From contig NZ_CP049143.1 in assembly GCF_011044495.1 (NCBI RefSeq), positions 434,001 to 498,000 of the forward strand: 64,000 bases of DNA. The letters are read 5' to 3'. The DNA is from Roseimicrobium sp. ORNL1. GTDB taxonomy: Bacteria > Verrucomicrobiota > Verrucomicrobiia > Verrucomicrobiales > Verrucomicrobiaceae. The position numbers and the translations under genes were made by a program. This document shows, piece by piece, positions 42,929 through 54,815 of this stretch. Positions within the stretch are counted from its first letter, which is position 1; each line of letters starts with the position of its first letter. Below the pieces are notes generated by a model. That model made no database searches and was not told the origin of the DNA. It saw only the letters and a program-made list of their open reading frames with translations.

Positions 42929-43040
42929 GGGCAGGGGAGCGACCGCATTCGCAAGCCGTGAGCCATCGGGCCGTGCCGGCTTGATTTTGTTTCCCCATAT
43001 CATCACTTGAAACTTGCGGGCGACCCCGGCACATTCGGTC

Positions 43041-44075
43041 GTGCAAGTACCATGGTCCATCAAGCTCGCGCGGGCGCTCTTTCTGACGCTCGCCGTCGTG
43101 CTTGGCGGTGCCGTCGCCGCAGGCTTTCATGCGGAGATCTGGATTGGCACCCTGATTGGCCTCGTTGTGGGTGGTTTCTTCGTGCTGGTGGATGCGCTGC
43201 TGGCCCAGTTCACCTTCCGTGAATTTTCCTTTGGGACCTTTGGACTTCTGGTGGGGTTGTTCTGCGCGTGGCTGGTGACGAAGATCGGCATCATGGACCT
43301 TCCGTGGTTCCGCAGTCTGGAAGATCCAGACTCCATCCGTAGCGTGGTGGAGATCTGCATGTATCTGATCTTTGGCTTTCTCGGCATCACCCTCGCGCTC
43401 CGGAGTGACCGGGATCAGTTTTCCTTCATCATCCCCTACGTGCGCTTCCGCAGGGACGCCTCCGAAGGTGAGCCCATGTTGCTTGATACCAATGTGATCA
43501 TCGACGGGCGCATCCCCCAGGTTTATGAGACGGGCTTCCTCTCGGGAAATCTGGTCATCCCCCGGTTTGTTCTCGATGAACTGCAGCGCATGGCGGATTC
43601 ACGAGATCCCCTCAAGAGCTCGCGTGGGAAGCGAGGCTTGGATGCTGTGCAGAAGCTCCGAGACACGAAAGGGATTGAACTCACGGTGCATGAAGCTCCC
43701 GGCAATCATGAGGGCGCAGCGGTGGACACACTGCTGGTTACGCTGGCTCATGAGCTGAATGCCCGACTCCTCACCAACGACGTGAATCTCGGGAAGGTCG
43801 CCCGGGTGAAAAACGTGACCGTGCTGAACTTCAATGATCTTGCCAGGGCGCTTCAGCCGGAAGTCGGAGCCGGGGACGAACTGGACATCAGTCTCGTGAA
43901 GTCAGGCAAGGAGAAGCATCAGGCGGTTGGCTACCTGCCGGACGGAGCCATGATTGTGGTGAACTACGCCTCCCAATTCATCGGGGACACCGTCGCCATT
44001 GTGGTGAGTGGCGTGACGCACACCTCCGCTGGCCGGCTTATTTTCGCCGACTTGAAACAGGCGCGGGCTCAGTAG
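43041..44075 (+). CDS. YacL-like membrane PIN/TRAM-domain protein
   Basis: From the GTG at 43041 the 344-residue protein has about four membrane segments (to about residue 125), then a PIN nuclease fold (MLLDTNVIIDGRIPQVYETGFLSGNLVIPRFVLDELQRMAD, GLDAVQKLRD, GAAVDTLLVTLAHELNARLLTNDVNLGKVARVKNVTVLNFNDLA) with the expected acidic residues. A C-terminal TRAM domain follows (ELDISLVKSGKEKHQAVGYLPDGAMIVVNYASQFIGDTVAIVVSGVTHTSAGRLIFAD). This is the YacL/PilT-TRAM family of membrane-bound putative RNases. A TTG at 43014 is an alternative start. Its last 38 bases overlap a convergent gene. Confidence 0.85.
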   Translation: MQVPWSIKLARALFLTLAVVLGGAVAAGFHAEIWIGTLIGLVVGGFFVLVDALLAQFTFREFSFGTFGLLVGLFCAWLVTKIGIMDLPWFRSLEDPDSIRSVVEICMYLIFGFLGITLALRSDRDQFSFIIPYVRFRRDASEGEPMLLDTNVIIDGRIPQVYETGFLSGNLVIPRFVLDELQRMADSRDPLKSSRGKRGLDAVQKLRDTKGIELTVHEAPGNHEGAAVDTLLVTLAHELNARLLTNDVNLGKVARVKNVTVLNFNDLARALQPEVGAGDELDISLVKSGKEKHQAVGYLPDGAMIVVNYASQFIGDTVAIVVSGVTHTSAGRLIFADLKQARAQ

Positions 44076-44505
44076 GCGGAGTCGGCACACCCGCCTTGTG
44101 GGAGCGCACGGTGATTTCGCGTTGGGTCAGGTCGCGTAGGATGGAAATCACTTGAGGGCGCAGACGGTTGAACTCCTCGCGCTGTTCCGGGTTGAGTTCA
44201 CGGGCGATTTCCTCGTGGGTTTCCTGTGCCACGTTGACGATGCGCTCATAGGATTCGCCCCCGATGTCGCGGATGTGCATGTCAGCGCTTTCCACGATGG
44301 GGCGGATGCGCTGCTTCTGCTCGGGAGTGATTTTGAGGCGGCGCTCCAAGTCGGCGAGCCGGGCGTTCACCCACTTTTCTTGGGGTGGGGTACGGGAGAA
44401 GATACGCTGCAGCGCCACCACGGTGCCGATGGCACCGGTGCCCACGCCCGCGCCGAAGATGGCCATGAGGCCGAGTACCATTTTCCAATGACGGAAGAGT
44501 CTCAT
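44038..44505 (-). CDS. Membrane-anchored CpxP/Spy-like periplasmic protein of the sigma operon
   Basis: The 155-residue protein has an N-terminal membrane anchor (about residues 8-28) and a helical domain with ARLADLERRLKITPEQKQRIRPIVESADMHI, then ELNPEQREEFNRLRPQVI. The helix-loop-helix with two TPEQ/NPEQ-type motifs is the LTxxQ pattern of Spy/CpxP and of the heavy-metal sensor family, periplasmic proteins that sense or buffer misfolded envelope proteins. It ends the sigma factor operon (44813-44502 overlaps it by four bases), so it may act as a stress sensor. The tail is Pro-rich. It overlaps the convergent YacL-like gene by 38 bases. Confidence 0.7.
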   Translation of the reverse strand: MRLFRHWKMVLGLMAIFGAGVGTGAIGTVVALQRIFSRTPPQEKWVNARLADLERRLKITPEQKQRIRPIVESADMHIRDIGGESYERIVNVAQETHEEIARELNPEQREEFNRLRPQVISILRDLTQREITVRSHKAGVPTPPTEPAPVSSRRK

Positions 44506-44813
44506 AGCGTCAGCAGCGAATCAATCCAACCTCCCGCAAGTGCCGTCTCGCCCGTGAAGATGCCGAACAGCGTGTCATAGCTGAGTGCAGCGCTTCCCAG
44601 CAGGATGACTACCGCCACGGCTACTCCGCGAAGGGCCAGCCATTCCAGCAGGGCGAACGAAGCCTCGCGTGGATGGGATTTCCACTGGGCCACCACCCGT
44701 GTGGCAAATCCGAGCGGAGCTTCCGCAGCTGGCTGGACAGCAGGCGAGGTACTCGCACGGGCCGCGAGGCGCGGCCAGGCACGGTCAGCAGGATCGTGAG
44801 GGTGGCGGTTCAT
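44502..44813 (-). CDS. Hypothetical one-pass membrane protein in a sigma factor operon, possible anti-sigma factor
   Basis: The 103-residue protein has a cytosolic Pro/Ala-rich N-terminus, one membrane segment (about residues 66-87, RGVAVAVVILLGSAALSY) and a short outer tail. Its start overlaps the sigma factor stop by four bases (ATGA) and its own stop overlaps the next start by four. Translation of the three genes is thus coupled. In ECF loci a single-pass membrane protein next to the sigma factor is usually an anti-sigma factor, but I see no zinc-binding anti-sigma motif. Confidence 0.6.
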   Translation of the reverse strand: MNRHPHDPADRAWPRLAARASTSPAVQPAAEAPLGFATRVVAQWKSHPREASFALLEWLALRGVAVAVVILLGSAALSYDTLFGIFTGETALAGGWIDSLLTL

Positions 44814-45421
44814 GTGGCGGGAGAGGGGGAATAGGTAGCATCGAGTGCGGCGAAGGCCTTGCGCAGTTTACGCCGTGCCCGGAAGGCGCGCACCTTTACA
44901 AGCGTGGCACTCCATCCGGTGGCGGCCTGGACGTCGGCGACGGAGCGGCCTTCCATGTCCATCATGGTTAGTACGAGACGATCGGCGGGTTTCAGCGTTT
45001 CGAGAAGTTTGCTGGCCAGTTCGCGTGCACCCACGGCATCAGCGGCACCGCTGTCCGTTTCATCATGCAGGACGTGATCGAGCATCTCCGCCTCGTTTTC
45101 GCTCAGGTCGGCCCAGCGCAGTTCGGGCCGCCGTTTTTGGTGGCGCAGGGCGTCCAGGCACGTGGTGACTGCCACACGGGAAACCCAGTGCTCAAAGGGC
45201 ATTTGTGCGCGCCATTGCTCAATGCGGGCAAACATTTTCATGAACACCTCCTGCGCGAGATCCTCTTCGCTGCTGCGCCGGGGGAGGTGGGCCCGCACGA
45301 TGCGCAGCACCAGCGGGTAGAGACGCTCCACGAGCGTGGTGGCCGAGCGTTCACAACGGTCATCGCGCACCCTTGCCACCAGGTCGGTAAGATCGGGGCT
45401 GGAGGCGGGAGGGACGGACAT
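44810..45421 (-). CDS. ECF sigma-70 factor
   Basis: The 203-residue protein has region 2 (RLYPLVLRIVRAHLPRRSSEEDLAQEVFMKMFARIEQWRAQMPFEHWVSRVAVTTCLDALRHQKRRPE) and region 4 (LETLKPADRLVLTMMDMEGRSVADVQAATGWSATLVKVRAFRARRKLRKAF), the two-domain layout of ECF sigma factors. It would direct RNA polymerase to a small regulon, probably of envelope-stress genes, given its two coupled neighbours downstream. Candidate promoter motifs are not clear in 45422-45531. Confidence 0.9.
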   Translation of the reverse strand: MSVPPASSPDLTDLVARVRDDRCERSATTLVERLYPLVLRIVRAHLPRRSSEEDLAQEVFMKMFARIEQWRAQMPFEHWVSRVAVTTCLDALRHQKRRPELRWADLSENEAEMLDHVLHDETDSGAADAVGARELASKLLETLKPADRLVLTMMDMEGRSVADVQAATGWSATLVKVRAFRARRKLRKAFAALDATYSPSPAT

Positions 45422-45531
45422 GGACTCGGCAGGGGCACAGGATCAACGACGTCCCGCCCGTGTCCGCGGTTACACACACTCTGCCTCCTTGTCTTGGGCG
45501 AAAAAGAAAAATGCTGTACCAGTGCGTGAGG

Positions 45532-47440: not shown

Positions 47441-50400
47441 ATGCCTTACCTGGCCTTCAACCTCAACAACGGCAATGAGTTCATCTTCGATCTCGAGGAT
47501 GCGCGTCTTTCGCTGGGTCGGAACAGTCGTAACGAAATCGTCATCGACAGTTCCCAAATCTCCAGTTTCCACGCGGAATTGTTGCGACGTCCCGACGGAA
47601 ATTACGAGGTGGTCGACCTGAAATCGTCCAACGGGACCTTTGTGAACGGCAAGCGTGTCGAGCGCGCGGTGCTGCGCCAGGGAGACAAAGTCCGCTTTGG
47701 CGGACTTGAAGCCAAGTTCAAGGATTCCGCCGACACGGAGCCCAGCAACGGCCATCCCAAGAGCAGCGGCAAGTCGGTCGAGGAAAAGAAGCGCGAGGCG
47801 GAACGGAGCGGTACCCCCGAGTCCAAGACGGAAGCGGTACAGCTCAAGGAACGTGTGGCCCCGCAGATGAGGAATGGCGGCGGCAGGCCTGCACAGCACA
47901 TGGCTTCGACGGCTACCAGCGCGGTGCCAGTGCTGCGTGACAGCAAGGCGCCTTTCCCCGCACCCACTCCCTCGCCTGCGCCGCGGTCGGGCCCTTCCGG
48001 CAGCTCGCGTGGCAGAAGTGATGATGAACCGATTGTCACTGCTCCCATTGCCTTTGGACCGAGCGATTCATCTCTCGCCATGGCGCCGCCCAGCGGCCTG
48101 AGCGATGCGCCCCTGACGTTTGCCGCACCGCAAGGGCTGTCCATGATGCCGCCGCCGGCATCGATTTCCGCAACTCCACCCCCCGCAGCCCCTGTAGAGC
48201 CGCCACGCCCTGAGCTGGCGCCACCGGCACGCGGAAGAGCGCCGTCTTATGGGAACGGCAACGGCACGGAAGTGCCGCCGCAGCAACAACCGGCCTCTTT
48301 CAAGTCCGCAGGTGGACGGCAGGCAGCACCTTCCACTGCTACCAGTGCCGTGCCCACACTCAAATCCACGCGCTCGGTGCGTGTGGGTCCCGGGGCTATG
48401 GGCTTCAAGCCGCCGCAGCTTCAGTCGCTGGATCGGAGCACCGAGCCGGGCGCCCCTGAGGCTCCCCCTTCTGCTTCTCTTCCGCCTCCTCCCGCCGCGG
48501 CTCGAGGTGGTAATAAGAATGGTGGCAGGCCCGCGCACTCCATGATGGAGACCAGTGCCGTGCCGACCCTGAAGGCTACCCGTGGTGTTCGCGTCGGAAT
48601 GGCGGCGATGCCATCGGCCTTTGCCAGTCCCCCCGTGCAGGGCATGCCTCCCGTGGCGCCCGTCGAGATGCCGCCACCGGCACCTGCTCCAGCTCCGGCT
48701 CCGCCGCCCGTTCAGCAGGCTCCCCTGCCTCCGGGACCGGTGCCCATGCCTCCGCCTGCGCCTGCGCCAGCAGCTCCGGCCGTGGACAATCCGGCTGGGG
48801 TGAATGTCCAGCCGCTCATGCTGGATGCGCCCCAAAGCCTCATGGCACCGCCGCTCCCTCCGGGCTCGCTGGCCTCAGGCTCGGGCTTGGAAAGCCCTGA
48901 GATTTCGCAAGCCGGGACTGATGAGTTTTCTCGTGGCAGGATGCAGCAGGCCGTGGCAGAGCTGTCTGCCGTGCAGGCCCAGATCGCCGAGAACCGGGCG
49001 GCGGAAATGCGCACGCGCGAACGTGCGGGCCGTGAAGGCCAGGAAGCGGAGGAGTATCTCGCCAAGCTGAGCCGTGACATTCGTGAGGCGGAAGAACGGC
49101 TCGCCGCGTTGACGCGCGATGCCTCTTCGCGCGAGAGCAACGATGCCGCACTGGCCGCTGCCGCGTCCACTCGAGTGGACGAGCTCAACAGATCGCTGGG
49201 TACGATGCAGACGCGCCAGAAGGATCTGGAGTCGAACATTGCCGGTCTCTTCACCGAGCGCACTTCGCGCGAAAAGGATCTGGAAGAGGTCAATGCCCGC
49301 CTGGCTGCTGCCCGCGAGGAAGTGGAAGCTGCGAAGAGACTGCAGCAGGCCGTTGCCGATCAGACTCGTGAAGCCGAGGCCCGCCTGCGCGAAGCGGCGA
49401 GCAAGGCGGACCAGTCGCAGGAAGCCCACGGCATGACCGCGGAGCGCGTGCGCACCTTGCAGGCCGAACTGACGGCTGCCCAGGAACGCATGCAAACCAT
49501 GCGCAGCGAGGCGGAGCAGGCATCCAGAGCTTTGGACGATCGCAAGGCGGCCACGGAGGCAGTCATCGCCCAGCGCGAAGAGCATCTGCGCGCGCTGGAC
49601 ATGCGTGTGGCCGAGCATGAGGCCAAGCGGAACGCCGCAGAGACGCGACTTGTGGAACTCGCCGGTACCGACAACCGGCTTGCTTCTGCCAATGAAGCTC
49701 TCAAGCTGATTCAGGAGCAGCAGACCGCCACGGAAGTGGCTCTCGCGCGCCTGCGGACCCAGCAGGAGCAGGAACGCTTGGAAATGACCCAGACGGCCGA
49801 GAAGCTGGCTTCTGTAGTCGCCCAGTACACGAACGCCACTGCGCAGGCCGAGGAAGCGCAAAAGCAACTTGCCGAGCACGAGGCGAAGCTGGCTGGCGCC
49901 AGGGATGCGATTGCTCAAGTGGAAGCTGCGGCCGCAGCCCGGCAGGCGGAGTTGGATAGAGCGTTTGCCGAAAGGCAGGCTGCGATGGAAAAGGCCAGCG
50001 CGGAACGTCAGCAGCAGGTCAGTGAAGCGGAAGAGCGCACCCGGTCGTTGGAGGGCGTGTTTGCCGGACTCACCGGACGCATCAACGAACTTCGCGAACT
50101 GGAAAAGGTACTGGTGGAAACCAGGCCGCGGCTTGAGGCAGTGGAAGCCCGCCGCAACGAAGCCGAGGCCTCGCTGACTGCACTCTCCGCACAGGTGCAC
50201 GACCGCACTCGCGAACTCAGCGAGGTGGCGGCCCGTGTGGGCGCGCAGGAAAACGCGCTGAAGGAGATGGCGGCCAGCGAACAGCAAATGCAGGCAAACC
50301 TGCAGGCCATTCGCAAGGAAAGCGATGCCGAGCGGGCTCGTTTCGAAGAGTTGCGCGCCACGACTGCGGCCGGGGAAAAGGCCCTGGGCGGACGTCGCGC

Positions 50401-53254
50401 CGAACTGGAGCGCATGGTGGCGGACATGGAGAGCTCCGCACTGTCCTCCAAGGAGCGACTGGAGCAGCTGCGTCGGCAGGAGGAGGAAGTCATGCGGAAG
50501 CTTGGCGATCTCTCCACCACAGACTCGAAACTTCAGGATGCAGCCAAGGCGCTTCAAGTGGTCGAGGAACAACGCACACGCATCCAGGAGCAGATTATCG
50601 CTTTGGGAGCGCAGCGTGAGGAGCGCGAGCAGGAGATCTCCGCCACTGCGGAAAAGGGCGCCGCCCAGCACTTGCTGGTGCTGACGCTTTCCCGTCAGCG
50701 TGCCGGTCTCGAAGAGAACGTGACCGAGCTCACCGGTGCCGCTGAAAAAGCCCGCAAGCTGCTTGCGGATACGGAAGCCAAGAGAACCGAGATGGAGGCC
50801 AAGCTCACCGCCCGCACGGGTGAAGCTGAAAAGGCACTCGCCGAGATGGAGAAGAAGGTGGCTTCGGAGAAGAAGGCCTTCGAAGAATTCAAGACCAAGC
50901 GCGAGGAGATCGACAAGCAGCTTGCTTCGCTGAAGGACACAGAGAGCAAGATCGCTTCTGCGCGCGACATGCTCACTGCGACCAACAAGGGCCAGCAGGA
51001 AGCCGAGGCGAAACTCAAGCAAACGCTGGAAAACGTCACCGCGGAGCAGGCTCGCTTGGAATCACTGGCAGGCAAGGGCGCAGAGATGCAGCGCTCGATT
51101 GATGCTCACAAGCAGCAGCAGGATTTCCTTCAGGAGAACATCACCAAACTCTCGAACGATTCCAACGCGCAGCTGGCAATCATCGCGAAGAACCAGGCTG
51201 CGGCAGCAGAGTCGGCCCGTGTGCTCGGACTCAAGCAGACCGAACTCTCGAACGTGGAAGATCAGCTCGCCATCGCTTCTCGGAAGCGTTTGGATCTTGA
51301 GAACCAGATTGCTGAGTTCCGGGATCTTGAGCAGAAAATCGCCGCCGCGCGCGAAGGCTTTGCCGCACTGGAGCGCCAGACGGGAGAAGAACAGCAGAAA
51401 CTGGCTGCCGCCGCGCATGAAAAGACCCAGACCGAACAGGCGCTCGCCGCGGTGAGGCTGGAGATGGAAGGCCAGCGGACGCAACTGGACGCCCTACGCC
51501 AGCAGCAGGAACAGGCGAAGCGCGAGATCGAAGTCGCGAAGCAGCTTGCCGAGGCGGAGAACAATCGTGCTGTCGGTATCCGCGACGAGATGGCGCAGGT
51601 GGGCGCTGCAATCGCTGCGCGTCAGGCAGAGGTGGTTGCCACGGAAAAGAAACTGGAGGCGGTGCAGGCCAAGCTCGTGCCGGCGGAGAAGCGTTTCGCC
51701 GACCTGCAAGATTTGGAAAACCGGGTGCGCGAAGCCCAGGCGGCTTTGAAGGCGACCGAGAAGCTGCGTGGCAACGAGGAAAAGAACATCGCAGAACTCG
51801 AGAAGCAGCGTGAAAAGCTGCGTCGCGACATCGCCGGGCTTACCACGCAGGAGAAAGCAGACCGCGCCAAGGCGGACGAGCAGGCCAATCGTGCCAAGTT
51901 GGAAGAGGCCCGGGCGGTGGAAGCGGAGAAGAAGCGCGAGCAGGTCATCGTTGCCATCCAGCAGGTGGATGCGAAGCGCGCCGAGATCGAAAGCCGGATT
52001 CTCGCTGCGCAGGAAGAGGAAAAGGCCGTGCGCTCCGGCATCCCCGCCGTCACTGCGGAAATGGCAAAGTTGCGCGAGGAACTTCAGGCATTGCAGACCG
52101 AGCGTGTCCGCGAGGAGTCGAAGGTCAAGATGCTTACCGACGAGTCCAACGCTGCGGCGATGCGATTCGAAGCAGCAGCCGCGAAGTGCGCCGCAGTGGA
52201 CAAGGATCGCATTGCCATCGAGCAGGCCATCGCGGGACTGCGCGAGCAACAGGAGCAGGGCGCTGTACGACTTGCCTCCCTCAAGGTGGAGGAGGAGGAA
52301 TTGCAGACCAGCACTGCCGCGGCCCGCGCCCGCCACGACGAGCGGGAGGCTGCTTTTGCTGCCCGTCTTGGCGAGATGGAGAAGGCGCACGAACATCTTC
52401 GCCAGCAGGAGGAGGCCGTGGTCAATTCCATGAACGCCACCCGCCAGCAGCTGCAGGAAGAGGAAGCTGCGGGCGAAACCCTGCGGCAGAAGTTCGCTGC
52501 CGCTGAGGCGCGCTACTCAGAACTGGTTCGCTCGGGTGAGAAGATTATCTCCATCAATGAGGCCCTGGAGCTTGCGGACGAACGCAGGCGTGAGATGAAT
52601 CGTAACCTGGCCAGCCTGGCTGAACAGGAACTCGCGCTGCAAGTCCGTTTCAACGCCCTGGATGAGAACATCAAGCGTGACACGCGCCGTGAGGAAGAAG
52701 TCCGCCGCGAACGCGAACAGGCCGAGGAACAGAACCGCCAGACGATGGAACGCCTTCGCGGTGAGTTCGAAGGGATGAAGCAGATGTTCGGCGACCAGCT
52801 CAAGCGTGAAGAGACTGCGCTGGCTTCCCGGATGAAGGAGCGCATCGCGGACATGCAGCAGAAGCATGACATCCTTTCGCGAGGCCTTTCTGCCGCCACC
52901 GACGAGCAGACAGTCATCCTGTTTGCCAACGATCTTATCAAACGGCTGGACCTTCTCGACATCCTCATCCAGCGCTACACTGGCTCTGGGCAGGATGGCG
53001 TGGAGCAGCAGCTCCGCACGTTGAGGGCTTCCTTTGAAGATATTCTTTCCCAGCATGGCATCGCCGAGTTCCGCGTGGATACGGGAACAGAGGTCGATGT
53101 GGCTCTGCGTCAGCGCATTGCCGTGGTGGAGAACGTAACCGGTGAGCAGCGGCCCCGTGTCGTGGAGAGCTACCGCCCCGGTTTCGTCTATTCTCCTGAT
53201 GGTTCAAGGGAGATGATACTTCGCAAGGTAGAGGTTAAGACTTCGAGCGAATAA
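47441..53254 (+). CDS. Giant FHA - coiled-coil - GrpE-like fusion protein (1937 residues)
   Basis: The N-terminus (about 1-95) is an FHA domain, shown by LSLGRNSRNEIVID, SSFHAEL and DLKSSNGTFVNG; FHA domains bind phosphothreonine. Residues about 100-490 are a Pro/Ala-rich linker in which TSAVPxLxxT-type motifs recur near residues 159, 301 and 371. Residues about 500-1800 are charged coiled coil (Ala/Glu/Gln/Arg-rich) with an L-x3-[DEG]-x-[KR]-[LIV] landmark at 740, 884, 1024, 1164, 1293, 1422 and 1695. The last 120 residues follow GrpE: NDLIKRLDLLDILIQRY, LRASFEDILSQHGIAEFRV, IAVVENV and then PGFVYS, ILRKVEVK, which align with E. coli GrpE (FGVEVI, IAMVES, KGYTLN, IRAAMVTV). The gene for an Hsp70 starts 73 bases later, so nucleotide exchange on that Hsp70 is likely. 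It may tether chaperone activity to a phosphorylated target. Confidence 0.85.
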   Translation: MPYLAFNLNNGNEFIFDLEDARLSLGRNSRNEIVIDSSQISSFHAELLRRPDGNYEVVDLKSSNGTFVNGKRVERAVLRQGDKVRFGGLEAKFKDSADTEPSNGHPKSSGKSVEEKKREAERSGTPESKTEAVQLKERVAPQMRNGGGRPAQHMASTATSAVPVLRDSKAPFPAPTPSPAPRSGPSGSSRGRSDDEPIVTAPIAFGPSDSSLAMAPPSGLSDAPLTFAAPQGLSMMPPPASISATPPPAAPVEPPRPELAPPARGRAPSYGNGNGTEVPPQQQPASFKSAGGRQAAPSTATSAVPTLKSTRSVRVGPGAMGFKPPQLQSLDRSTEPGAPEAPPSASLPPPPAAARGGNKNGGRPAHSMMETSAVPTLKATRGVRVGMAAMPSAFASPPVQGMPPVAPVEMPPPAPAPAPAPPPVQQAPLPPGPVPMPPPAPAPAAPAVDNPAGVNVQPLMLDAPQSLMAPPLPPGSLASGSGLESPEISQAGTDEFSRGRMQQAVAELSAVQAQIAENRAAEMRTRERAGREGQEAEEYLAKLSRDIREAEERLAALTRDASSRESNDAALAAAASTRVDELNRSLGTMQTRQKDLESNIAGLFTERTSREKDLEEVNARLAAAREEVEAAKRLQQAVADQTREAEARLREAASKADQSQEAHGMTAERVRTLQAELTAAQERMQTMRSEAEQASRALDDRKAATEAVIAQREEHLRALDMRVAEHEAKRNAAETRLVELAGTDNRLASANEALKLIQEQQTATEVALARLRTQQEQERLEMTQTAEKLASVVAQYTNATAQAEEAQKQLAEHEAKLAGARDAIAQVEAAAAARQAELDRAFAERQAAMEKASAERQQQVSEAEERTRSLEGVFAGLTGRINELRELEKVLVETRPRLEAVEARRNEAEASLTALSAQVHDRTRELSEVAARVGAQENALKEMAASEQQMQANLQAIRKESDAERARFEELRATTAAGEKALGGRRAELERMVADMESSALSSKERLEQLRRQEEEVMRKLGDLSTTDSKLQDAAKALQVVEEQRTRIQEQIIALGAQREEREQEISATAEKGAAQHLLVLTLSRQRAGLEENVTELTGAAEKARKLLADTEAKRTEMEAKLTARTGEAEKALAEMEKKVASEKKAFEEFKTKREEIDKQLASLKDTESKIASARDMLTATNKGQQEAEAKLKQTLENVTAEQARLESLAGKGAEMQRSIDAHKQQQDFLQENITKLSNDSNAQLAIIAKNQAAAAESARVLGLKQTELSNVEDQLAIASRKRLDLENQIAEFRDLEQKIAAAREGFAALERQTGEEQQKLAAAAHEKTQTEQALAAVRLEMEGQRTQLDALRQQQEQAKREIEVAKQLAEAENNRAVGIRDEMAQVGAAIAARQAEVVATEKKLEAVQAKLVPAEKRFADLQDLENRVREAQAALKATEKLRGNEEKNIAELEKQREKLRRDIAGLTTQEKADRAKADEQANRAKLEEARAVEAEKKREQVIVAIQQVDAKRAEIESRILAAQEEEKAVRSGIPAVTAEMAKLREELQALQTERVREESKVKMLTDESNAAAMRFEAAAAKCAAVDKDRIAIEQAIAGLREQQEQGAVRLASLKVEEEELQTSTAAARARHDEREAAFAARLGEMEKAHEHLRQQEEAVVNSMNATRQQLQEEEAAGETLRQKFAAAEARYSELVRSGEKIISINEALELADERRREMNRNLASLAEQELALQVRFNALDENIKRDTRREEEVRREREQAEEQNRQTMERLRGEFEGMKQMFGDQLKREETALASRMKERIADMQQKHDILSRGLSAATDEQTVILFANDLIKRLDLLDILIQRYTGSGQDGVEQQLRTLRASFEDILSQHGIAEFRVDTGTEVDVALRQRIAVVENVTGEQRPRVVESYRPGFVYSPDGSREMILRKVEVKTSSE

Positions 53255-53327: not shown

Positions 53328-54815
53328 ATGGCAGAATTTGTCGGCATCGACCTCGGCACCACTCTGTCCGGTCTGGCTTATCTAAAGCCGGATGGACATC
53401 CTGAAATCGTCCCCAATGCGGATGGAGAACGACTGACACCGTCAGTCGTCTACTTCGACGCGCATGAAGACGTGAAGTTAGTGGGCAGTGCCGCGCGCGA
53501 TGGCGGCGATCCCGACCGCACGATCTACCAGATCAAGCGGCACATGGACGATCCTGAACACTTCGTGGAGATTGACGGCAAGAAGTGGACGCCGGCTGAG
53601 ATTTCCGCGCTCATCCTGAGCAAGCTCAAGCGGGAATGCTCGCGCATCGTGGGTGACATCAAGGAAGCCGTGATCACCGTGCCTGCGAACTTCAATGAGC
53701 TGGCGCGCAAGAGCACCATCGCCGCCAGTGAGATGGCCGGCATGAAGGTGCGTCGCCTGGTGAATGAACCCACGGCTGCGGCGGTGTATTATGCCCACGG
53801 CCAGGGCGTGCGCGGAAAAGTGCTCGTGTTTGACATGGGCGGTGGCACGCTGGACGTGACCATCCTTGAGGTGGACGGCGAGAGCTTCCGCATCATGACG
53901 AGTGAAGGCGCCCGCCACCTTGGGGGTTCAAATATCGATGAGCAACTTCTGGATCTCTACGCGGATCAGTATCGCGAGCAGACCAATTCAGAGCTCTTCT
54001 CGGATGAACGCCAGCGCCGCCGTGTGCTGCACGCTGCCGAGGATGCGAAGAAGATGCTGAGCAAGCTGCAGCGCGTGAATGACACCATCGGCAACGATGT
54101 GAATGGCATTGCACGCATCGACTTCACCCGGGATCAGTTTGAGAAGCTCGTGGCGAAGCTGCTCACGCGCGCCATCATGCTGGTGGAGCAGGCGCTGGCT
54201 GGCGTGAATCTCACGCCCAAGGATATTGATCACGTGGTGCTCGTGGGTGGTTCCACCCGCATTCCGAAAGTGAAAGTCGCGCTGGAGCGATTCTTCGGCA
54301 AGGCGCCCAAGTCTTGCGGCAACGTGGATGAAGCTGTGGCCCTCGGTGCAGCGCTCTTTGCGAGGAAGTCCGCGCGTGTGCGTGAAGTTTGCAATGCCAG
54401 CTATGGCACGCTTGCCTACGTCGTGAATCAGACGACGGGCGAGGAAGGGGTGCGTAACTCCATCGTCATTCCGAAGAATACGCCGATTCCCTGCTCCCAC
54501 ACGCAGGTCTACATCACCTCTGATCCGAATGAGCGCTTCATCGAGGTGGATATCACGCAGGGTGAAGATGATGATCCCCGCTTCGTGGACGTCATCGGCA
54601 AGATCACCCTGGAAGTGCCGGCGAACCGCCCTGCCGGATGCGAGGTGGCCGTGACCTACAGCTACGATGAAAACCAGCGCGTGCGCGCCCTCGTGGTGGA
54701 CAAGGAGAGCGGACGTTCCCAGGAAATCGCCGTGACCTACAAGGGCGCCGGCATCCTCACGGATGAGGAACTGGAAAACCGCGGTACCATGCTCCGCAAA
54801 CTGCGCATTGAGTAG
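53328..54815 (+). CDS. Hsp70-family protein without the alpha-helical lid
   Basis: The 495-residue protein has the Hsp70 ATPase domain (about residues 1-365): GIDLGTTLSGLAYL, DIKEAVITVPANFNELARKSTIAASEMAGMKVRRLVNEPTAAAVYY, VFDMGGGTLDVTILEV, LGGSNIDEQLLDLY and DHVVLVGGSTRIPKVKVALERFFGKAP. A shorter C-terminal part (about 390-495) corresponds to the substrate-binding beta sandwich. DnaK is about 640 residues; the helical lid is absent here and the linker does not show the DVLLLDV-type motif. It is not the housekeeping DnaK. It follows the GrpE-fused giant protein by 73 bases and precedes a small protein by 36 bases, in an apparent operon. Confidence 0.9.
   Translation: MAEFVGIDLGTTLSGLAYLKPDGHPEIVPNADGERLTPSVVYFDAHEDVKLVGSAARDGGDPDRTIYQIKRHMDDPEHFVEIDGKKWTPAEISALILSKLKRECSRIVGDIKEAVITVPANFNELARKSTIAASEMAGMKVRRLVNEPTAAAVYYAHGQGVRGKVLVFDMGGGTLDVTILEVDGESFRIMTSEGARHLGGSNIDEQLLDLYADQYREQTNSELFSDERQRRRVLHAAEDAKKMLSKLQRVNDTIGNDVNGIARIDFTRDQFEKLVAKLLTRAIMLVEQALAGVNLTPKDIDHVVLVGGSTRIPKVKVALERFFGKAPKSCGNVDEAVALGAALFARKSARVREVCNASYGTLAYVVNQTTGEEGVRNSIVIPKNTPIPCSHTQVYITSDPNERFIEVDITQGEDDDPRFVDVIGKITLEVPANRPAGCEVAVTYSYDENQRVRALVVDKESGRSQEIAVTYKGAGILTDEELENRGTMLRKLRIE

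Follow-up and report, generated by a model that had tools for sequence, protein, structure and literature searches.

The window, a stretch of 64,000 nucleotides of Roseimicrobium sp. ORNL1 (contig NZ_CP049143.1, positions 434,001 to 498,000), contains three consecutive genes on its minus strand (44038-45421), encoding an extracytoplasmic function (ECF) sigma factor, a one-pass membrane protein and a membrane-anchored CpxP/Spy-like protein. This trio is a conserved unit recurring across Verrucomicrobiota, often with a common promoter element in front of it. It is likely to form a transmembrane switch, in which the sigma factor would be held by the middle protein, the hold would be set by the CpxP/Spy-like protein, and the sigma factor would control both its own operon and a small number of membrane and lipid genes.

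The coordinates of the trio were re-found from the open reading frames. The first gene (44810-45421, 203 residues) matches the Pfam domains Sigma70_r2 (PF04542, 52.7 bits) and Sigma70_r4_2 (PF08281, 38.0 bits), both over the cut-off; regions 2 and 4 are the only sigma regions listed by Pfam, fitting ECF membership. The protein can be aligned with two sigma factors of known structure, RpoE of E. coli (1or7) at E 7.7e-12 and CnrH (4cxf) at E 1.4e-6. It is followed by the genes of the one-pass protein (44502-44813, 103 residues) and of the anchored protein (44038-44505, 155 residues). The initial annotation had read these genes as overlapping by four bases, with an ECF sigma factor first and an LTxxQ-type protein last, and all of this holds. 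The overlaps are both ATGA, one shared by the sigma stop and the middle start (44810-44813), the other by the middle stop and the third start (44502-44505), and the third protein matches LTXXQ (PF07813) with 25.2 bits at a cut-off of 24.3.

Further loci were gathered with the middle protein as the query, apart from one early set gathered with the third protein, then pooled and made non-redundant. An ECF sigma gene lies directly upstream of the middle gene in 206 of 215 relatives, and in 195 of the 215 there is in addition an N-terminally anchored protein downstream. The third gene was called in these 195 by position, length and hydropathy, homology not being the criterion; across the proteins so called, the columns of Q63 and Q108 are 99% conserved. 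Of the nine relatives without an upstream sigma gene, six begin no more than about 220 bases from where their contig stops, whereas this is not so for L151, L212 and L215. Among the 11 relatives that have the sigma gene and are outside the 195, two (L084, L146) stop at a contig end and nine are weaker matches, with at most 32 bits. Exact four-base overlaps are common though not universal, occurring between sigma and middle genes in 130/195 trios and between middle and third genes in 96/195.

A profile of the middle protein (A5, 60 rows) matches 127 of 386 genomes of the order at E 1e-6 and 40 of 68 genomes of the family; across the phylum at E 1e-4 it matches 57/387, some of these being weaker, different proteins. 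In a second order 46/322 genomes match, all 46 from one family (f9). The window's genome has a single copy. Two contig scans, which did not amount to a systematic search of other phyla, yielded 0 and 5 loci, and the five named records, including Brevifollis gellanilyticus (L161) and a Prosthecobacter bin, are all Verrucomicrobiota. No relatives of the middle protein were found in plasmids at E 1e-3, and none in viral contigs with a single-protein query, which reaches close relatives only. Two loci (L023, L037) have a fourth gene, whose product is another N-hydrophobic protein with motifs of the LTxxQ type, and members of a 36-protein family are found repeatedly behind the trio of other loci.

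The start of the sigma gene is marked by a predicted ECF promoter, which is putatively autogenous. Sequences from 250 bases before to 90 bases after the first possible sigma start codon were searched in the 190 trios with enough sequence, and the expectation was taken from dinucleotide shuffles. The element GTWACC-N15..17-CGT occurs in 103 of these (0.8 expected) and the looser GTNAC-N16..18-CGT in 136 (7.0 expected). In the window the candidate promoter (45448-45473, minus strand) consists of a -35 box GTAACC, a 16-base spacer and a -10 box CGTC, and lies 26 bases before the sigma start codon. In 11 of the 103 cases the element falls after the first possible sigma start, and these starts therefore are probably annotated too early. 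A conserved pair in L338 and L357 was set aside; it sits in a frame of 314-315 residues on the other strand. The sole other match to GTWACC-N15..17-CGT in the window (53135-53158, plus strand) lies inside the end of the gene at 47441-53254. Some 170 bases further on, at 53328, begins a gene which, judging from its first residues, presumably encodes an HSP70-like protein; this match is probably due to chance.

The form of the element is correlated with two positions of the sigma factor, 174 and 177, both in the recognition segment of region 4. Among the 103 trios, all 21 promoters of the form GTTACC..CGTT pair with methionine at both positions, and all 82 GTAACC promoters pair with valine at 177. 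Possibly this is a specificity switch; the 21 cases may be one clade, so that the change in sigma factor and promoter may have been a single event.

Judging by the same element, a small number of membrane and lipid genes are likely targets, and its predicted reader is the sigma factor of the trio. GTAACC-N15..17-CGTC has 27 matches in the window's genome (G000) and 22 in the second genome of that genus (G001), far fewer than the 97 that the reversed-pattern control gives in each. The matches were checked for a downstream gene in these two genomes (27/27 and 16/22) and in a genome of another genus (G012, 20/20). With one coding-frame site excluded, five genes have the element upstream in both G000 and G001: the trio; a membrane protein of 197 residues with four hydrophobic segments; an alpha/beta-hydrolase (esterase; Peptidase_S9/DLH); a membrane protein resembling fatty-acid hydroxylases (PF04116, 109 bits); and a GDSL lipase (PF00657, 72 bits). 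The esterase and the lipase both have a signal-like start. At the esterase, hydroxylase and GDSL sites the boxes are intact in both genomes, and the 16-base spacers match at just 5, 5 and 6 positions; about 0.009 chance co-hits are expected for these three. The hydroxylase site ends 10 bases ahead of the first ATG, inside a longer possible frame, and the exact starts of the target genes are uncertain. In G012 the element precedes the sigma gene, the membrane protein gene and a GDSL-lipase gene that appears split across several frames; the hydrolase and hydroxylase genes are not among the 20/20 element sites read there. A GTAACC-N17-CGTC site present in three genomes (L350, L353 and L402) was set aside as coding conservation, as it lies within a coding frame (459 residues in L350 and L353). 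That site precedes a gene for an N-hydrophobic protein of 200-203 residues, and a promoter there is possible.

One of these candidates is the four-helix membrane gene (L352/L358; G000:C1:7827700-7828345, outside the window). Its product has no Pfam or NCBIfam family over the cut-off, and a relative weakly matches CysZ/EI24 (E 0.098). Out of 33 matches to this gene, 30 had a locus; eight of these are trio-linked and one, with nine upstream bases, was dropped, leaving 21 unlinked copies. Within 220 bases upstream of the unlinked copies GTWAC-N15..18-CGT is found in 19/21 cases (0.59 expected) and the strict form in 18/21 (0.08 expected), and the two copies without the element (G022, G125) come from genomes without a trio match. 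Of the eight trio-linked copies, six have the element. Homologues lying close behind the trio were seen in L017, L022, L026, L029, L062, L083, L106 and L110. Where the two were compared by eye, the membrane gene and the window-type trio of the same genus are preceded by the same form, GTAACC or GTTACC. Both are present in 29 genomes of the family, the trio alone in 11, the membrane gene alone in four and neither in 24 (Fisher P 2e-6, which is optimistic because the genomes are related).

The middle protein has no family in Pfam or NCBIfam, and most likely it is a minimal CnrY-like anti-sigma factor. This reading is based on its position behind the sigma gene, its predicted topology, two predicted cytosolic helices and the coupling of F36 to sigma regions 2.1/2.2 described below. 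A single membrane segment is predicted from hydropathy in 142 of 148 middle proteins, and the N-terminal side is the more positive in 122/147, which, as far as flanking charge tells, would place the N-terminus inside. In the window protein the membrane helix covers about residues 59-77 (44583-44639), with the hydropathy maximum at residue 59. An AlphaFold2 model (m3ce895c637a1), built from six sequences, those of the window and the named records, predicts helices at residues 8-21, 33-46 and 48-102, with a mean predicted local distance difference test (pLDDT) score of 68 and block values of 53-72 over residues 1-50. Helix 1 (44751-44792), modelled with modest confidence and present in the alignment, includes W13; helix 2 (PLGFATRVVAQWKS, 44676-44717) begins at the conserved PxGFATRV, where G35 and R39 are at least 90% conserved in an alignment of 60 sequences. 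The C-terminal tail has a recurring LSWP or FLP end in many of 30 aligned relatives.

The initial annotation had placed the middle protein where an anti-sigma factor is expected and had found no known motif in it. The place is borne out by the 206/215 relatives behind an ECF gene, but the absence of a motif does not stand: a related PxG[F/L]xxR occupies the corresponding position in further proteins encoded next to sigma genes, and three of these proteins have the signature Hx3Cx2C. Profile A5 weakly finds sigma-adjacent proteins outside trios with a related motif ahead of a membrane helix. In L211, L214 and L218 the match comes just after Hx3Cx2C, at PPxGLxxRI and before the membrane helix; no Pfam domain was found in L211 and L214, the two scanned. 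According to the available sections of PMC7406223, Hx3Cx2C is the zinc signature by which class I anti-sigma domains are recognised. By pattern rather than by proven homology, the PxG[F/L]xxR motif thus resembles the helix with which anti-sigma factors generally bind sigma-2, here accompanied by one further helix. Nine sigma-adjacent proteins (L209, L211, L213, L214, L216, L217, L218, L219, L257) weakly share a part consisting of a short helix, PxGFxxR and a membrane helix, and have other lengths and other C-terminal parts than the middle protein; one of them, L209, carries an AMPK1_CBM domain. Going by these nine proteins, the anti-sigma part may be modular.

Residue coupling between the proteins was estimated by the mean-field method from the 195 trios (effective number 154). 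Among all between-protein pairs of the three proteins, sigma Y35 with middle F36 ranks first and sigma A56 with F36 third; when the sigma factor and the middle protein are taken alone, A56-F36 and Y35-F36 are the two strongest pairs. The maximum in the block of sigma residues 25-66 and middle residues 31-46 is 1.77, a value reached in none of 41 within-cluster shuffles (highest 1.32). In four other settings Y35-F36 is always in the top four, and A56-F36 is in the top two in three of them. F36 is thus coupled to sigma regions 2.1/2.2 beyond the within-clade shuffle. W13 of helix 1 pairs with D155 of sigma region 4 at rank four among sigma-middle pairs.

These data bear on one alternative, in which the anti-sigma role would not belong to the middle protein and the three genes would be merely co-transcribed. 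In its favour, none of the anti-sigma factors of solved structure matches the middle protein in sequence. The ECF adjacency in 206/215 relatives, the F36 coupling and the related motif ahead of the membrane helix in the Hx3Cx2C proteins L211, L214 and L218 speak against it, and we regard it as very improbable.

The third protein (44038-44505) is probably a periplasmic co-sensor. A single membrane segment is predicted from hydropathy in 147 of 148 such proteins. It has two LTxxQ-type motifs, ITPEQ at residues 59-63 (44317-44331), with Q63 in 99% of the 195 proteins, and LNPEQ at residues 104-108 (44182-44196), with Q108 in 99% and L104 in 98%. Third proteins of two relatives score under the PF07813 cut-off (23.9 and 19.0 bits) and also give Metal_resist matches under the cut-off (21.9 and 21.3 bits; cut-off 29.2). 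Searched with its profile, the protein is related to Spy (E 0.0037) and more weakly to CpxP (E 0.2); the second-ranking match in hmmsearch, a component of a haemolysin, was taken as chance helix similarity. The structural model of the protein aligns to STV (5io8; Z 8.1, root mean square deviation 2.0 over 72 residues), CnrX (4wwf; Z 5.8, 2.7 over 74 residues; 2y39, Z 5.2) and Spy (5wo3; Z 5.7, 2.7 over 60 residues), suggesting a Spy/CnrX-type helical fold.

One possibility is that the trio is a true CnrYXH-type sensor of transition metals. It has the same three roles as that system, its third protein aligns to CnrX in the model, and both relatives scanned give the Metal_resist matches mentioned above. 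On the other hand, no metal ligands are conserved among the 195 third proteins, where the best histidine column reaches 27% and the best methionine column, apart from the start, 25%, whereas Met123 is conserved among CnrX homologs according to the available part of PMC7689651. The predicted targets, moreover, are of the membrane and lipid type and not efflux pumps. Since no histidine or methionine column is conserved, metal sensing was rejected as the principal interpretation, and we consider it improbable.

Another possibility is that the CpxP/Spy-like protein is merely an output chaperone and the middle protein senses alone, for example through regulated proteolysis of its periplasmic tail. 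Spy and CpxP are chaperone or adaptor proteins that are themselves stress-induced. The genes of the middle and third proteins lie behind the same promoter element, and the tail of the middle protein has the recurring LSWP or FLP end described above. Against this, the third gene is kept in 195/215 loci, often overlapping the middle gene or near it, which would suit a need for constant proportions of the two proteins, and the third protein is almost always predicted to be anchored by one segment (147/148). Furthermore, the sensor of CnrYXH is a protein of that fold and AabB lowers SigAb activity, as far as the available sections of the sources cited below describe them. We hold the output-only role to be unlikely, though less so than metal sensing.

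The switch with the third protein as co-sensor may be pictured as follows. At rest, the middle protein, with its N-terminus inside, would tether the ECF sigma factor at the membrane. Helix 2, with its PxGFATRV, would cover sigma regions 2.1/2.2, the site of core RNA polymerase binding, and helix 1 probably covers sigma-4, like CnrY on CnrH; we infer the latter contact, as well as that between the third and middle proteins and the release of the sigma factor. The CpxP/Spy-like protein, anchored by one N-terminal helix and predicted to be periplasmic, would touch the short tail of the middle protein and set the tightness of the sigma hold. An envelope disturbance, with the lipid or protein-folding state a likelier signal than a metal ion, would alter this contact and free the sigma factor; inhibition, sensing and signal are proposed by analogy with characterised systems. 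The free sigma factor would then transcribe its own operon from GTWACC-N15..17-CGT, and because the brake and the sensor are made from the sigma factor's own promoter, the response would shut itself off. It would also transcribe unlinked genes with the same promoter, namely that of the four-helix membrane protein and, in the window's genus, those of the esterase and the GDSL lipase, both probably exported, and of the fatty-acid-hydroxylase-like membrane protein. The compact envelope-stress module proposed by the initial annotation is supported in part: as a single module by the conserved trio and the promoter in front of it, and in its envelope theme by the predicted membrane and lipid targets. 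Its suggestion that the CpxP-like protein senses misfolded proteins is a conjecture.

Several observations weigh against this scheme. The strict promoter element is missing from 87/190 upstream regions. The membrane gene is absent from 11 of the 40 trio genomes, and 4 of the 33 membrane-gene genomes have no trio match, one of them (G197, 68% complete) keeping the element in an upstream check that covered all four but G140. Profiles A1 and A5 did not find CnrY of 4cxf among PDB sequences, where short fragments are easily missed. The model of the third protein has a modest pLDDT (63.5, with residues 1-39 under 50), and Foldseek found nothing for it at E <= 0.001; most of the matches, among them nuclear receptors, were to helical proteins and read as noise, CnrX entries came only at E >1, and all were disregarded. 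Since unrelated helical chains score at Z 6.4 and 6.0, between STV and CnrX, the model alignments support rather than prove the Spy/CnrX-type fold. In the coupling analysis, the most down-weighted setting is led by A56 with the tail residue G95, and A56-F36 drops out of the top six. The block maximum between helix 1 and sigma-4 is reached by 31/41 within-cluster shuffles, so a sigma-4 contact could not be separated from phylogeny and was dropped as a conclusion from coupling. Finally, the bulk pairs between the cytosolic part of the middle protein and the third protein number 13 versus 6.1 expected, and those between the sigma factor and that cytosolic part 13 versus 9.3; in an earlier run with 148 trios the latter had been 19 versus 9.4, an excess lost in the larger set. 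Bulk enrichment was not used as evidence because it is just as high for the physically impossible pairing of compartments that are unable to touch.

A broader proposal, which is tentative and about which we are somewhat doubtful, is that the trio represents a widespread envelope-lipid stress response of Verrucomicrobiota's own. In it a two-helix anti-sigma domain (helix 1 and PxGFATRV) would be joined to sensors that can be exchanged for one another; in the trio the sensor would be a Spy/CpxP-like protein of its own that works independently of metals, and elsewhere a fused domain, for example of the glycogen-binding AMPK1_CBM type, and sigma specificity and promoter would have shifted together, from GTAACC..CGTC to GTTACC..CGTT with Met 174/177.

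As for the neighbourhood of the trio, a convergent PIN-domain gene (43014-44075) meets the third gene tail to tail with a 38-base overlap (44038-44075). Genes for a PurA-like protein and for a nucleoside diphosphate kinase lie upstream of the trio. The gene at 47441-53254 (plus strand) encodes a protein of 1937 residues with a Pro-rich part followed by a very long coiled coil; its N-terminal start resembles what we take to be an FHA domain.

Most of what is known about the sensing of envelope stress comes from Proteobacteria and Firmicutes. With the trio, Verrucomicrobiota gain a concrete candidate counterpart, for which a promoter sequence, target genes and a residue important for inhibition (F36, in the GF motif) can be predicted. 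The trio also suggests that the minimal two-helix anti-sigma design extends far beyond Cupriavidus, and thus many of the 'hypothetical' one-pass proteins whose genes follow an ECF gene may act as anti-sigma factors. The four-helix membrane protein, which lacks a family at the Pfam and NCBIfam cut-offs, acquires a predicted regulator.

The closest known systems are CnrYXH and SigAb-AabA-AabB, and modules of this kind are already known. CnrYXH of Cupriavidus metallidurans consists of the class II anti-sigma factor CnrY, the sensor CnrX and the ECF sigma factor CnrH, according to the available parts of PMC7689651 and PMC4598750. Like the trio in its likely reading, it combines an ECF sigma factor, a short one-pass anti-sigma protein and a membrane-anchored protein of similar helical fold, and the two cytosolic helices of CnrY are described there as embracing the sigma factor, which is held at the membrane. 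The trio differs in that its middle protein has no detectable sequence similarity to CnrY, its third protein has no conserved metal ligands and its predicted targets do not include a metal efflux pump. The gene order is different as well, being cnrY-X-H in CnrYXH.

SigAb-AabA-AabB of Acinetobacter baumannii, compared by its description in the available sections of PMC12153292, shares with the trio the gene order, the overlapping genes and a periplasmic helical third protein, AabB, which lowers SigAb activity. It has a 107-residue transmembrane anti-sigma factor with a CnrY-like modelled interaction, autoregulation and few direct targets; unlike the trio, it is called Acinetobacter-specific and copper-linked. 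By annotation alone, an operon of Azospirillum brasilense (RpoE8, a hypothetical protein and a periplasmic heavy metal sensor) has the same layout, as listed in the part of PMC12826043 available. Because CnrYXH and SigAb-AabA-AabB have the same three roles and the Azospirillum operon is annotated alike, the type of module is not new.

The RpoE-RseA-RseB system of E. coli likewise combines an ECF sigma factor, a one-pass anti-sigma factor and a periplasmic modulator in a single operon. The fold of RseB is unrelated to that of the third protein. RseA, unlike the middle protein, has a class I domain, whose four helices are sandwiched between the sigma domains, as the available sections of PMC7406223 describe it. 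No description of such a module in Verrucomicrobiota was found in the open-access literature searched, and searches of Pfam, NCBIfam and the PDB sequences did not recover the middle-protein family. As far as these searches extend, the trio is distinguished from the known systems by its phylum, its middle-protein family, a third protein lacking conserved metal ligands, its promoter and a predicted set of lipid and membrane targets.

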